Shown here one piece after another: positions 57,264 through 64,000 of a stretch of DNA of 64,000 nt (positions are counted from its first letter, which is position 1; every line of letters begins with the position of its first letter). The notes beneath the pieces are model-generated. The model worked only from the letters and a program-made list of their open reading frames with translations, ran no database searches and was not told the origin of the DNA. The stretch is from an uncultured Spirochaetales bacterium (GTDB lineage: Bacteria > Spirochaetota > Spirochaetia > Sphaerochaetales > Sphaerochaetaceae): positions 372,001-436,000 of the forward strand of contig CASFDA010000013.1 in assembly GCA_949293335.1 (NCBI GenBank), given 5' to 3'. A program made the position numbers and the translations under genes.

Positions 57264-60200
57264 TCACATCAGGGATGTCGATATGGCCAGTACTAACTTC
57301 ATACCGAAGATGTAACCATCTTCCCACTGGAAATCCCCATTACGGAGTGTAGCATTCTTTACAAGGTAAAGTCCAAGAGGGAAACCAGGAATTGCAAGCT
57401 TGAAACCCGCACCGATTGCCATATACCAATCAATATTGTTGAAATTAGAAAGCGCAACGAGGGTGCTGGTCGCACCAGTCATCGATGCAAACGCTTCCAC
57501 GTTCACAAGGTCTATTACAACAGGGAAAGAGAGATCGATCTGGTTGTGCCATAGGAACGAAAGATCGGTGATCGTATCAAAACCACGTCCGATGTTCATT
57601 CCATCAATGTAGAGCATCTCGTACTCTGTCGCGCCCTGACGCGCTGTATATCGTCCCCATACTCCGTTCCTGTTCCAGTACTGGTCAAACATGAAGGAAA
57701 CATTTGACGTGAGAGAAAGCACAAGACTCCTGTTCCTTTCCTCTTCGTCTATGTAGCTGTAAAGCGGAATAAAGCCCTGGGCACCTACAGAAAGCCTGTT
57801 GTAGTTCGAAAGGCCTCCGAGGAAACCGCCCGCATACATATAGTTTACAGACAAGAGATAACCTTTTGTTGTATTAGTGACGAAATCACGTGCATCCCAT
57901 ACAACCCTGAATGACAGCCTGTTCGAGAACTGCCAGTTGTCATGATACTTCAGGATAAGGTCGTTATATGGATTATACTTGTCATCGTAGAATGCCCTAT
58001 TCAGACCGATCGAGATTCCCGCGCCGAGCGTGAGATTGCCCTGGAGGAAATTGAACGTGTATCCCGTATCATAGCCAAGCGCGAACCTGAGATAGTGATA
58101 TTCCATCAGATACTCGTCCGTCGGGTACTCCATATCAGATCCATACCACTCTTCCGCGCTCGAATAACCAAGTGGATAGGTGACTTTTGCGTCATCGCGT
58201 CCATCGTAATAAGCACTTCCGTCACCTCTTTGAAGTTCATCATCAATAAGCTGATGAGTGAACGTGAAGGAAATGCCGTTCGACCACCTGTGGTCCCCTA
58301 CCCAGCCGTTGCTTATTCCGATAGTCGCAGACTGGGTATCTGGAGAAAGTGTTGTCGAGATAGAAAGTGTCCTTCCTGTTCCACCAAGGTTCTTGTCAGA
58401 CCACTGCAGGAAACCTGAGATCGGAAAGCCGTCAACAGTTCCGCCGAACGTCGCGCCGAACTGAAGCTCCATCTGATTACCCTCTTCTACCTCAAGCTGG
58501 ATAATTATTCCATTTTCCGTCTCGCCAGGATAAAGCTCAAGTCTGATGTTCTTTATCAATCCAGTGTTATAGATGTTCTGCTGGCTGCGTATTACCTGAC
58601 TTCTGTCAAAGATGTCACCTTCATGGATCGTCAGCTCACGCTCAAATACATACGGCTTTGTCTTTGTGATGCCTACAATCCTGATCGCCTCGATTACAGT
58701 CTGTCCCCCTTCAGTGATATTGATGTGATAAGAGACCGTATGATTCTCCTCATCAAAAGTCGGGACAGGGACAATATTTGCATTTATGTATCCGTTATCG
58801 TAATAAAGCGTGCTGATCTGGGCAAACACGTCAGTAAGCTTGCTCTGATCATGGATATCACCTGCACTGATGTCAATAAGATCAGAAATCTCGCTATCTG
58901 AGAAACGTTCATTGCCGGAGAAAGTTATTGGACCGAAATACCACCTATCACCTTCATCGATGGTGAATACGATATTGAGAAATCCTGTCTTATCCTTTTC
59001 CTCCGTCACATCTGGCGTATCGACAGAAACAACGCGCATATTCATATATCCTGCATTGAGATAGTGTGTCTCAAGTGCACTTATATCACTGGACAAGTTG
59101 GCTTCGACGAAATTGCCTGCAGTGAAGAATCCCTTCCTCTTGCTTGTGAGGAGCTTGTTGAGGTCCCTGGCTGAGAAAGCGCTGACACCTTCGTAGACGA
59201 TATCCCTGACTTTGAACTGCTGCCCCTCGTTCACGGTAAAATGGATAGTTTCTGTGTTCGTCGCTTCATCAAATGCGCTTTCCCCTGTAACAGTCGCATC
59301 CTTGTATCCTCTGGCAAGGTAATAGTTCCTTATTGCTTCAGCGCTCTGCGGTACATTGTTCGCACCAAGGAATGATCCGACTGTATAACTCTGTTCAGAA
59401 AGAAGTGTTCTTGAGTTATATGAGTTGTTTCCTGAGATAGTGATCTCGGAAATCATAGGATACTCGAGGAAATTGAGGCGTACGATGAGACCGCCATCTG
59501 TCTCATCCCTCTCCGCATCCATCGTCGCGTACTCCATCCAGCTCTGGCCATATAAGGTACTGAATATGCTCTGGAACGTATCGTTATTGAATATCTCTCC
59601 ACGGTAATCACGCATGAGACGGTCAACCGTTGAAACATTCACATTCTGCAGTCCGGTATATTCAAAATCCTTGATCGGCATTCCCTCATACCATGGAGCA
59701 GAAGACGAAGCACTTGCCTCTTCTGAAGAAGGATTCTCTGTCGCTGTGGCGCTTGCTGAATTTGCAGAACTCCCCTCATTGATAGTTATCTCGAAACTTT
59801 CTGTGTTCGATACCACGTCATAGCTCAACCGGACAGAACAAGTCACACCATCATATCCGTTCTGGCGATAGTAGCCTTCTATGATCCTTGAAAGGGCATT
59901 GACATCCACGTTCTTCAGATAAGAACCGACTGAGTAGCCCAGAACTGATGAAAGCTGCTGTGAAGAAAAGAGCGTATTGCCGGTAATATTAATGCCAGAG
60001 AGTGTCGGTGTCTCGAAGATCTCCAGAGTAAGCACGAGAGAATCATCGCTTCCCCTTGTCGCACCAAGAATGAAATAGTCAACGTTATCAAGACCCTCCA
60101 GATAAGACGAGATCTCACTCTCTGTCTGACTGTCAAATGGCTTTCCTACGAAGCTATCAAGAAGTGAGGAAAAAGCACTCTCATCTTCCACTCCTGTGAC

Positions 60201-60887
60201 AGAGAATGCAGAAATGGGCAGATTCCTGTACCAATCTGTTGCCACCTCGCCCTGCTGCACAGTACTTTCAGCTGAAGCCATCTGACTCGGCTGGAAGAAA
60301 TTGAGATCCTGACCTGTCTGGATCTGTCCTGATATGTCAGTGTTTTCCCCTTCAACCTTCCTCAGGTCAAGTTCAACAACAACCCCATCGCCGCTATTTC
60401 TTATATCGCTGACTGTTATCGAAGAAAGGAAAGGAAGATCTGAGAGAAGTACATCAACTTCATCAGAGAGGCTCTCATCGTTGATGTCCCTGCCAATGTA
60501 TCTTTCAAGCTCTCCATTGACCAACAGACGTTCTCCCTCGGTAAGCTCATCACCTGTGAATACGAAAGATGATATTGTCGTTGGAAGAGAAGAAGAATCC
60601 GCATTAATGGTGACTATATAATCACCATCTTCATTCTGATCAACACTTGAAACATACAGCGAAGAGAGGGAAAGCCTCGAATTTATTTCATTCTCCGCAT
60701 TCGAGATAAGCTCATCATTCAAGCTCTGATCCCGATACAGGTCCAAAATGGAATTGAGGTCCGCCCTGTCCTCTTCATTCAAATTTCCTTCTATTATTAC
60801 ATCCTTCAGGAGTCCCTCTGCAGAAAGCGTCAAGACGAAGGATGAGAACAAAATCATTGCCAGTGAAAGGATTTTCCAAACTCTCAT
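57264..60887 (-). CDS. bamA: BamA-family outer-membrane assembly protein with expanded POTRA array
   Basis: A 1,207-residue protein; typical BamA has about 800. Signal peptide MRVWKILSLAMILFSSFVLT, cut after LSA. The N-terminal region appears to hold three repeated POTRA pairs with a 180-residue spacing: the second starts at Trp219 (WYRNLPISAFSVTGV) and the third at Trp399 (WYEGMPIKDFEYTGL). Three more POTRA domains follow (FKVRDIVYEG, YFGPITFSGNERF, IEAIRIVGITKT). The barrel (about 800-1207) ends in a hydrophobic strand. ATG at 60887 has AAGGAG 5 nt upstream. The second and third pairs are linked by S- and A-rich spacers. Confidence 0.9.
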   Translation of the reverse strand: MRVWKILSLAMILFSSFVLTLSAEGLLKDVIIEGNLNEEDRADLNSILDLYRDQSLNDELISNAENEINSRLSLSSLYVSSVDQNEDGDYIVTINADSSSLPTTISSFVFTGDELTEGERLLVNGELERYIGRDINDESLSDEVDVLLSDLPFLSSITVSDIRNSGDGVVVELDLRKVEGENTDISGQIQTGQDLNFFQPSQMASAESTVQQGEVATDWYRNLPISAFSVTGVEDESAFSSLLDSFVGKPFDSQTESEISSYLEGLDNVDYFILGATRGSDDSLVLTLEIFETPTLSGINITGNTLFSSQQLSSVLGYSVGSYLKNVDVNALSRIIEGYYRQNGYDGVTCSVRLSYDVVSNTESFEITINEGSSANSASATATENPSSEEASASSSAPWYEGMPIKDFEYTGLQNVNVSTVDRLMRDYRGEIFNNDTFQSIFSTLYGQSWMEYATMDAERDETDGGLIVRLNFLEYPMISEITISGNNSYNSRTLLSEQSYTVGSFLGANNVPQSAEAIRNYYLARGYKDATVTGESAFDEATNTETIHFTVNEGQQFKVRDIVYEGVSAFSARDLNKLLTSKRKGFFTAGNFVEANLSSDISALETHYLNAGYMNMRVVSVDTPDVTEEKDKTGFLNIVFTIDEGDRWYFGPITFSGNERFSDSEISDLIDISAGDIHDQSKLTDVFAQISTLYYDNGYINANIVPVPTFDEENHTVSYHINITEGGQTVIEAIRIVGITKTKPYVFERELTIHEGDIFDRSQVIRSQQNIYNTGLIKNIRLELYPGETENGIIIQLEVEEGNQMELQFGATFGGTVDGFPISGFLQWSDKNLGGTGRTLSISTTLSPDTQSATIGISNGWVGDHRWSNGISFTFTHQLIDDELQRGDGSAYYDGRDDAKVTYPLGYSSAEEWYGSDMEYPTDEYLMEYHYLRFALGYDTGYTFNFLQGNLTLGAGISIGLNRAFYDDKYNPYNDLILKYHDNWQFSNRLSFRVVWDARDFVTNTTKGYLLSVNYMYAGGFLGGLSNYNRLSVGAQGFIPLYSYIDEEERNRSLVLSLTSNVSFMFDQYWNRNGVWGRYTARQGATEYEMLYIDGMNIGRGFDTITDLSFLWHNQIDLSFPVVIDLVNVEAFASMTGATSTLVALSNFNNIDWYMAIGAGFKLAIPGFPLGLYLVKNATLRNGDFQWEDGYIFGMKLVLAISTSLM

Positions 60888-60966: not shown

Positions 60967-63900
60967 TCAGAACTGGAACTGTTTTGTGACGCTGAAGCCG
61001 AGAGAGTCAATGATTTCGTAAAAATTGAAATTCTCGGGTGCTGTGAATATCTTCACCTGACACATAGGATTTGTCCATTCAAGGGATATCTCGGTCTCAA
61101 GTATCAGATCGTTTGAAAGGAAGCTTGTTCCGCTGGAACTATTGCGCCCCCACCTGTTCTCATGCCTCCTCAGTTTCCCGCTGTCTGATGAAAGATGGAA
61201 CAGAGCCTCGAAATATACTGTCGGAGAAATATATTTGCCGAGATAAAGTGATGTACCGTCAAGATAGCTTGCAAGCGGACTGATGCGGCTGCTGTCTCTC
61301 CTCGTGAATGCCTCATACACCATGTTGCCGAGAATGTTCGTATGTATGTTCACAGTATCCAGATCGAACGTTTCGCGGATAGATTCCCTGATTCCAAGGC
61401 TGCCTGTAGGAATATAACCAAAACGTGAGAGGGCCCCTACTCCGGTATTCACAAGAGAGACGACGGAAGAGAGTCCCGTGCTGTTTGGATCGTTGGATAT
61501 TATCGCATTGCCGAGGACTTCCATAATCTCGCTCAGAGGACGCTGCGGTATGGACTCGAATGTAGGATTGAAATTATCTAGCGTTGCCTCCCGGAGCACC
61601 AGATAGATATTAATCCTCTCACCGTTCGTGTCATAGTCACGAAGTTCGGCGCGCAGATTTATTACAGGTTCAAGTCCGAATCCAGTATCCCTGAAAAGAA
61701 TTCCTCCCTCACGGATTATGAACGAACGCTGGAAGTAGTAGATCTCACCTGCACGGAAATCGAGCTGCCCTGAAGCCCTGAATCCGTTTTCGTCACTGGT
61801 GAACCTCACATTCTGATCCTCCCTGAACGAAGCGGAGAGGATAGGATTTGGCCCGAGTGGGAATATGAACGAGGAGTTCTCGATCAGATGCATGTTGAAA
61901 TCAAACTCGACGTGGGCTGTCGGACGATACCAGAATGGCAGTTCGTGAAGACCATACGAGAGTTCAAATCTTGTAGAATCAAGCTCACCTTTGAGATCGA
62001 CATTCCTGTGCCCATCCTGATAAAGGGAGAAATGTCCGGAAATATCTCCGAGGATATCGATGTTCATACTCCTTAGCGGGAATCGGAAATTAAGTTCATT
62101 TCCTTTCTCTACATATGCATCAACCGTATAGTACTCAAGGCCGAGCGATGATGTGAGACTGAATGTCACGAGAACCTTTCCTCGCTTGATCCTCTCTCCC
62201 CCATTCTCGATTACAGTGACATCGGTCATGTTTGACTTCACATGGTTGTCCCATATGGACATATAGACATTGTTTGCAACAAGGTGTTCGCCAGGAAGCC
62301 AGAAGACGTCCATTCCAAGCCTCTCTGTCGTAAGGTATCCATATGTATGGAAATCGCCTGGACTGCCAGAAAGGATTATCCTTCCATCCACGAACGTATC
62401 ATCATCTATTACCACAATAGGTCCGCGGAAGAACGGATTGAGAACCTCTAGGTCAACGTTGAAAATATCGATCGTCAGATCACTTTCATCGCCAAGAACT
62501 CCAGAAAGCACTATGTCGCCCAATGGCCTGAAGAATAGCGAGAGATCAAAGGAAACGAGATCCGAAATGCCAATTCTTCCATCGATCAGAGAACCGGCAA
62601 ATGACAATGTGTTTCCGCTATAAACAAAATCTGATGAACTTTCATTTATCAGAGACATGTCATCAATTGACATGCCGTAGATAGTGATGTTTCCTCCAAT
62701 GCCACTCAGATTATCAAGGTTTCTCAATGTCGAGATGAACGAAAGGAAATCATTTTGCTTTTCGAATGTGAGGTTCAAAAGTCCAGAAAGGGAGAATGTA
62801 TGGTTCCTGTCGAAATTTATGAGCGTCCTCTGATAATCAAACGGGAAATTCAGTGTCCCCTCGTCGAGCGAGAGCATGAATTCACTCAGCTCAAGTCTGC
62901 CAAGGCCATCTTCATATATCACATCGTCAAGATAGAGAGTGTCCTTGTCGATGAATATATCAGCATTGATCAGGAATGGATCAGACTCCGAATCGATATT
63001 CTCGGCGTGCAGATTTCCATTGAAAGAGAGTGTATTGAGATCCTGTCCTCTTCCTATGAGCGCAAGTGATAGCTTCTTCCCGGGGAAAGAGAACCTTCCG
63101 AGATCCAGATTCTTTACGCTCAAGAGTCCAGAGTAGAAGTCCGCATACTCTGAAAGGGACAGAAGTATCTCCTCATCTCCACCAGAAAGTATGAATGCCA
63201 CACTGCTATCTTCACTGGAAAAATTGAAGTTTCCGCTGAGATCTGGATAATCATCACTTGTGATGAGTATATCATTCACACGGACTCCCGACTTGTCGAC
63301 GTCTACTGAGAAAGAGAGATCTGGGTATGAAGGAATGAAAGTAAGGTCCCTGATGGAGAAATTTTCAGAATAGAGATGATACTCCTGACTGACTATGTCG
63401 AAAGAGAGAGTGAAGCCGCCGTTGATGAGACCTCCGTTATCAAAAAGACTTGAGGGAAGCTCGAAAGAATCAAATGTCAGATCGGCATTGATTCCATCCA
63501 GCCAGGAAATACCAAAGAATGCCCGCTCGTTCTCGACTGTCATCGTCTTGTCATCAAAGCCAACATTGATCCGGAAGTCCATATCCCTGGAATAGATATT
63601 GAGATGCGCATCTGAAAATAGCGTGTTCTCATTCTCCCCCAGACCAAGACTGCCATAGAGCCTTCCATCTCCGAGAACAGGGATACGGAAGTCAAAATCA
63701 ACAGCATCATCCCCTTTTCTGTCCATGTTGAGGTTTATTATCTCGTTCTCCCTCGTCGAATAGATAATGATGTCAAATGAGGGCAAGAGCGTCCTGAGAC
63801 TTATATCACCATTTGCCCAGATCTGCATGAAAGGAAGAGAGAGCGAGAGGTTTTCGATTGTAAGATAGTCTCCTTCCTTAACAACTCTGGATGAAATGGA

Positions 63901-64000
63901 AGTGTCAAACGGTATTCCGTTGAACGTGAGGGAAGAGAATGTGAGGGAAGCTGTGGAATCAAGATCAAAGCCATCCTGGAAATCTCCGCTTCCGGTGGCT
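60967..64000 (-). CDS. tamB: TamB-type (DUF490) translocation/assembly protein, C-terminal part
   Basis: About 1,010 residues are visible; the frame is open to the right edge, so the start is outside. It is a long repetitive beta-rich protein (many segments such as LYGSLGLGENENTLFSDAHL) with the conserved C-terminal DUF490 region: RASGQLDFRAGEIYYFQRSF, EPVINLRAELRDYDTNGERI and the barrel-adjacent YISPTVYFEALFHL. TamB-like proteins bridge the inner and outer membranes and are linked to lipid transport or protein assembly. bamA lies 79 bp downstream. Confidence 0.9.
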   Translation of the reverse strand, partial: ATGSGDFQDGFDLDSTASLTFSSLTFNGIPFDTSISSRVVKEGDYLTIENLSLSLPFMQIWANGDISLRTLLPSFDIIIYSTRENEIINLNMDRKGDDAVDFDFRIPVLGDGRLYGSLGLGENENTLFSDAHLNIYSRDMDFRINVGFDDKTMTVENERAFFGISWLDGINADLTFDSFELPSSLFDNGGLINGGFTLSFDIVSQEYHLYSENFSIRDLTFIPSYPDLSFSVDVDKSGVRVNDILITSDDYPDLSGNFNFSSEDSSVAFILSGGDEEILLSLSEYADFYSGLLSVKNLDLGRFSFPGKKLSLALIGRGQDLNTLSFNGNLHAENIDSESDPFLINADIFIDKDTLYLDDVIYEDGLGRLELSEFMLSLDEGTLNFPFDYQRTLINFDRNHTFSLSGLLNLTFEKQNDFLSFISTLRNLDNLSGIGGNITIYGMSIDDMSLINESSSDFVYSGNTLSFAGSLIDGRIGISDLVSFDLSLFFRPLGDIVLSGVLGDESDLTIDIFNVDLEVLNPFFRGPIVVIDDDTFVDGRIILSGSPGDFHTYGYLTTERLGMDVFWLPGEHLVANNVYMSIWDNHVKSNMTDVTVIENGGERIKRGKVLVTFSLTSSLGLEYYTVDAYVEKGNELNFRFPLRSMNIDILGDISGHFSLYQDGHRNVDLKGELDSTRFELSYGLHELPFWYRPTAHVEFDFNMHLIENSSFIFPLGPNPILSASFREDQNVRFTSDENGFRASGQLDFRAGEIYYFQRSFIIREGGILFRDTGFGLEPVINLRAELRDYDTNGERINIYLVLREATLDNFNPTFESIPQRPLSEIMEVLGNAIISNDPNSTGLSSVVSLVNTGVGALSRFGYIPTGSLGIRESIRETFDLDTVNIHTNILGNMVYEAFTRRDSSRISPLASYLDGTSLYLGKYISPTVYFEALFHLSSDSGKLRRHENRWGRNSSSGTSFLSNDLILETEISLEWTNPMCQVKIFTAPENFNFYEIIDSLGFSVTKQFQF

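Follow-up and report, generated by a model that had tools for sequence, protein, structure and literature searches.

A total of five POTRA domains is usual for BamA, although it does not strictly define the protein. Reviews give a range of one to seven, the seven being found in Myxococcus xanthus (PMC6604945, PMC8292188), and a superfamily survey also lists some BamA proteins with more than five (PMC4104836). For the spirochaetes, a survey of the TAM system describes a BamA with five POTRA domains that lies in an operon with TamB (PMC4494059). Why most bacteria have a five-POTRA BamA, and what sets the number, is a question raised in reviews (PMC4890855, PMC8292188).

Here we describe a longer BamA, encoded in a 64,000-nucleotide stretch of DNA (hereafter the window) from an uncultured Spirochaetales bacterium. 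It has nine predicted POTRA domains, and its counterpart in a sister species has, judging from sequence, ten. Mentions of "eight", "nine" or "ten POTRA" were not found in the literature searched, the coverage of which was partial. With one spirochaete family fully covered, both numbers thus exceed the highest count found in that literature (seven).

A standard BamA in a standard setting

The window bamA is one intact frame, flanked by tamB (upstream) and by mutS (downstream, after a gap of a single base), and the gene order around it is the same in the window genome, the sister species, and five-POTRA relatives. An earlier note, made from the letters of the window, had given its coordinates, its length of 1,207 residues, and the matching register of Trp219 and Trp399, all of which are correct according to the open reading frame and the sequence. 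The identification as BamA was right as well: TIGR03303, the NCBIfam equivalog model for BamA, covers residues 405-1176 and scores 388.7 bits against a cut-off of 297.15. Its POTRA array (PF07244) leads into an Omp85 barrel at the C-terminus (PF01103), which carries the conserved RGF motif (here GRGF). Using hidden Markov models (HMMs) built for each domain (P1 to P5) from BamA proteins of the genus, with the extended proteins left out, the five canonical POTRA domains are located at residues 399-805 with 92-128 bits each, within a total that here comes to nine.

A profile search of the genome finds no BamA/POTRA protein other than this one. In its barrel, its POTRA1-5, and its gene setting, it is an ordinary housekeeping BamA. 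From its family and its position as the only POTRA/Omp85 match of the genome, we infer that it catalyzes outer-membrane barrel insertion and is essential. An identity as TamA, which has three POTRA domains and a TamA-type barrel, was rejected: the canonical BamA P1-P5 are present, and a TamA model is not among the profile matches. An XseA-like exonuclease VII large subunit (G000 C10:96372-96476, L006), which scores just above the PF07244 cut-off, was set aside as a false POTRA match.

Table 1. Features of the extended BamA and its neighbor, in window positions (AF2, AlphaFold2; Z, score against shuffles)
Feature	Residues	Position	Strand	Evidence and remarks
bamA	1,207 aa	57264..60887	-	ORF; TIGR03303 388.7 bits; PF01103 and PF07244
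tamB (PF04357)	~1,547 aa in full (from locus L059)	60967..63999	-	5' end beyond the window
Signal peptide	1 to ~23	60819..60887	-	sequence MRVWKILSLAMILFSSFVLTLSA/EG; probable cleavage site
Extra POTRA a, weakly P1-like	25-100	60588..60815	-	AF2 beta-alpha-alpha-beta-beta; Foldseek; P1 HMM 8.6 bits
Extra POTRA b, weakly P1-like	103-181	60345..60581	-	AF2; Foldseek; P1 HMM 5.7 bits
Flexible linker	182-216	60240..60344	-	pLDDT mostly <50
Extra POTRA c, divergent POTRA1 copy	217-295	60003..60239	-	P1 HMM 22.7 bits; Z 11.5; AF2 fold
Extra POTRA d, divergent POTRA2 copy	296-373	59769..60002	-	P2 HMM 34.4 bits; Z 14.3; AF2 fold
Flexible Ser/Ala/Glu-rich linker	374-396	59700..59768	-	pLDDT <50 over most
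Canonical POTRA1	397-479	59451..59699	-	P1 HMM 91.6 bits; aligned with five-POTRA relatives
Canonical POTRA2	480-560	59208..59450	-	P2 HMM 97.2 bits
Canonical POTRA3	561-649	58941..59207	-	P3 HMM 105.3 bits
Canonical POTRA4	650-727	58707..58940	-	P4 HMM 101.3 bits
Canonical POTRA5	728-806	58470..58706	-	P5 HMM 127.9 bits
Omp85 beta-barrel, C-terminal	807-1207	57267..58469	-	PF01103; sequence; GRGF motif (IGRGFDTI)

Four added domains

All extra domains sit N-terminal to the canonical set, in two predicted rods that disordered linkers connect to each other and to P1-P5, so that the protein reads a-b, linker, c-d, linker, P1-P5, and barrel (Table 1). For the inner pair, residues 219-295 match the P1 HMM (22.7 bits) and residues 298-373 the P2 HMM (34.4 bits), against 9.3 bits for the best shuffled extension. 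Residues 217-373 align with 397-560, which lie 180-183 residues further along, and compared with shuffled sequences c/P1 reaches a Z of 11.5 and d/P2 one of 14.3; a tblastn-type comparison of c-d with P1-P2 gives 33% identity at 72.6 bits (E 2e-20); the 180-residue repeat noticed earlier is thus significant. BLASTP of the protein against itself shows no repeat, but profile and diagonal scoring did detect one. With HMM scores above the shuffled ones, c-d is a divergent duplicate of the P1-P2 pair at that offset.

The outer unit a-b is a tandem with a spacing of ~79 residues and without the Trp. Its halves score 8.6 and 5.7 bits with the P1 HMM, which is inside the shuffle noise (best shuffled 9.3); against the sister's P1 they reach Z values of 5.4 and 5.6, and lower ones against their own P1. 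They resemble each other (Z ~5) and their sister counterparts x1 and x3 (Z 7.8 and 13.3, respectively), b being 38-41% identical to x3, and neither resembles its own P2 in diagonal scoring against shuffles. These comparisons point to a tandem of P1-like domains that is older or arose in another way, not to a third P1-P2 copy. Of the three repeated pairs that had been proposed, one clear pair duplication (c-d = P1-P2) is left.

That a and b, weakly P1-like in sequence, are POTRA domains is suggested by their predicted fold. AlphaFold2, run on residues 23-830 with 24 sequences, yields nine beta-alpha-alpha-beta-beta units. Their pLDDT is mostly 80-93 in P1-P5 and mostly 60-88 in a-d, and most of the two linkers (~182-216 and 374-396) stays below 50. 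Modelled alone, a-b keeps the same topology, and all 50 matches listed by Foldseek for this model against the PDB are POTRA-bearing proteins (BamA/Omp85, TamA, or chloroplast TOC). TM-scores of the whole a-b tandem are ~0.4, with an uncertain interdomain angle; such low values are expected because that angle is not fixed by the model. With pTM values of 0.43 and 0.46, domain orientation in the models is not reliable. The prediction of nine POTRA folds stands, in agreement with the "about nine" of the earlier note, which had named structure prediction as one check; the contrary outcome it had foreseen, repeats without a POTRA fold, is not what the models give.

Distribution and origin

Of 48 genomes of the genus that were searched, 46 have a BamA match, and two of these encode an extended protein, namely the window genome and its sister G001 (contig CALXOH010000003.1). 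In the other 44, five of which have the match on a broken contig, it starts with canonical POTRA1, and the extension is not seen. The nine/ten trait is confined to these two sister species of the genus. The sister protein, from an independent metagenome-assembled genome (MAG) of another species, is 66% identical to the window BamA, and its 1,259 residues hold three P1-like single domains, then c-d, and then P1-P5, which by sequence would make ten POTRA domains. Elsewhere, a frame of 1,027 residues (L048) reflects upstream read-through, not extra POTRA domains, and the bamA of L019 (G031) has an in-frame TAA, so that the copy is broken or the sequence is in error.

Assembly of metagenomes may merge or multiply repeats, and the array could in principle be a chimeric or expanded repeat of assembly or annotation. 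We regard such an artefact as wholly improbable: the copies, about a third identical, have diverged too far for an assembler to mix them up, GC content is uniform without a step, the gene is internal to a contig of 443 kb, and the independent MAG of the sister species has the same c-d pair and the same kind of extension. The earlier note had feared that relatives might have five domains and the length be artefactual. The relatives do have five, and what separates them is a lineage-specific gain.

A scan of the whole family (139 genomes) brings up ten genomes from five genera (g32, g36, g41, g47, and g134) with frames of ~1,007-1,029 residues. By their sequences, these proteins (L040-L047, L107, and L108) have seven POTRA domains, with one added P1-P2-type pair. 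In a tree of the core from POTRA3 to the barrel they group in one clade, apart from the nine/ten pair, whose own clade is nested inside the five-POTRA genus; parsimony on this tree gives two gains. In a tree of the P1-P2 pairs, constraints for a shared and for a separate origin are both accepted (p-AU ~0.59). As c-d is closest to P1-P2 from its own genus (BLAST, 75 bits, versus ~28 with the extra pairs from the seven-POTRA proteins; profiles agree), a duplication separate in origin from that of the seven-POTRA clade is favoured, which is not proof.

Three five-POTRA proteins of the same family (L049-L051, from G336, G386, and G212) have a low-complexity spacer, ~70-170 residues long and rich in either Ser/Ala or Asp/Glu, that separates the signal peptide from POTRA1.

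Constraint on the extra domains

Between the two extended species, identity is 82% in the barrel, 89% in P5, 71% in P4, 80% in P3, 69% in P2, and 61% in P1, and falls to 51% in c, 36% in d, 38% in b, and 29% in a. The added domains (29-51%) thus diverge far faster than P1-P5 (61-89%). In every extra domain third codon positions differ more than second ones, in a codon-position comparison that is not a dN/dS estimate, third positions being near saturation, and the frame is intact in both species. The extension is kept open and foldable, under weaker constraint or faster adaptation. The speed of this divergence may mean that a-d are of little use to the cell; the intact frames and the excess of third-position over second-position differences, on the other hand, indicate that some constraint persists.

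Such fast divergence makes near-neutral accretion a serious and strong rival to a docking role. The free N-terminus of BamA would tolerate added domains and spacers, and duplicated POTRA domains would pile up and drift with no specific function. This would fit the steep drop in identity with distance from the barrel, the different counts (nine and ten) in two sister species, and the long low-complexity spacers that L049-L051 have at the same place. It fits less well with folds and frame kept in both species despite the divergence, with position 3 differing more than position 2, and with a P1-P2-type duplication retained across the five genera of the seven-POTRA clade. All in all, we see it as possible but tentative.

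A proposed distal docking arm

Our preferred reading, to which we give a probability of about one half, is that a single housekeeping BamA has had its free N-terminal end lengthened by four POTRA domains, which would serve as a flexible distal docking arm for clients or partners. With the additions at the membrane-distal end, neither docking on POTRA3-5 nor insertion at the barrel should differ from that in other BamA proteins. The arm would present added P1/P2-type surfaces to unfolded barrel clients and to partners of the outer POTRA domains, such as a SurA-like chaperone or the C-terminal domain of TamB, and would increase the local capture of clients, not bridge a wider periplasm.

Extra docking of this kind is plausible in view of what is known about the partners. 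In Borreliella the DUF490 domain of TamB binds POTRA2 and POTRA3 of BamA (PMC11361582), BamD docks on POTRA4-5 (PMC13382580), and solved BAM-SurA complexes have the periplasmic chaperone docked on BAM. All 12 genus genomes tested, both extended ones included, encode a SurA-like protein with SurA_N and rotamase domains. Skp (PF03938) and BamD (PF13525) have no match above cut-off in 12 genus genomes (G000 and G001 among them); the two proteins are missing there or have diverged beyond the reach of the models. A link of the extension to the loss of Skp or BamD was rejected, since the five-POTRA genomes among these 12 look the same and the pattern is not specific.

A narrower version would have the added P2-type domain d act as a second site for the C-terminal DUF490 domain of TamB. 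The neighborhood speaks for it, with tamB directly upstream of bamA, and so does the reported contact with POTRA2/3, d being a P2 copy. TamB itself has no matching change in length, however, with 1,547 residues here, 1,526 in the sister, and ~1,493-1,530 in five-POTRA members of the genus for which a start could be assigned; moreover, a, b, and c resemble P1 and not P2 or P3, and POTRA3, among the reported contacts, is not duplicated. We think this version rather improbable.

An arm of nine domains and two linkers could extend far beyond one of five domains, and the earlier note had suggested that the longer arm may span a wider periplasm; it might also reach the inner membrane. This idea has fared badly, and we rate it as very improbable: TamB also crosses this space and has a normal length, and the gene order does not differ from that in the five-POTRA species of the genus.

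Returning to the docking arm, a bolder and still unlikely extrapolation, though slightly less so than the second TamB site, is that the distal POTRA array is an evolvable, modular holding arm. In this lineage, repeated P1/P2-type duplication would then have placed a second docking station for clients or partners in front of the BAM core, one that might do some of the work of a periplasmic chaperone, Skp having no match above cut-off in the 12 genus genomes tested.

Comparison with known systems

One genus with five, nine, and (by sequence) ten POTRA domains, in a family that also has seven, amounts to a natural series of otherwise closely related BamA cores, on which it becomes testable what the number of POTRA domains does. 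It also places a seven-POTRA clade within a family whose phylum, the spirochaetes, was described as having five.

With the canonical five-POTRA BamA/Omp85/YaeT of Borrelia/Borreliella and E. coli, the window protein shares the signal peptide, POTRA1-5, the Omp85 barrel, and the GRGF motif, and with other spirochaetes the tamB-bamA gene order; it differs by four POTRA domains and two flexible linkers added N-terminal to POTRA1. The seven-POTRA BamA of Myxococcus xanthus and some duplicated copies of Acidobacteria and Aquificae (PMC6604945, PMC8292188, PMC4494059) likewise have more than five POTRA domains on an Omp85 barrel, whereas here there are nine or ten, and the genome has no second BamA. 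The divergent extra POTRA domains described in PMC4494059 are internal, whereas the added ones here are distal and N-terminal. Within the same family, the seven-POTRA proteins L040-L047, L107, and L108 also have a P1-P2-type pair added in front of canonical POTRA1, but they lack an a-b pair and belong to a separate clade of the core tree.
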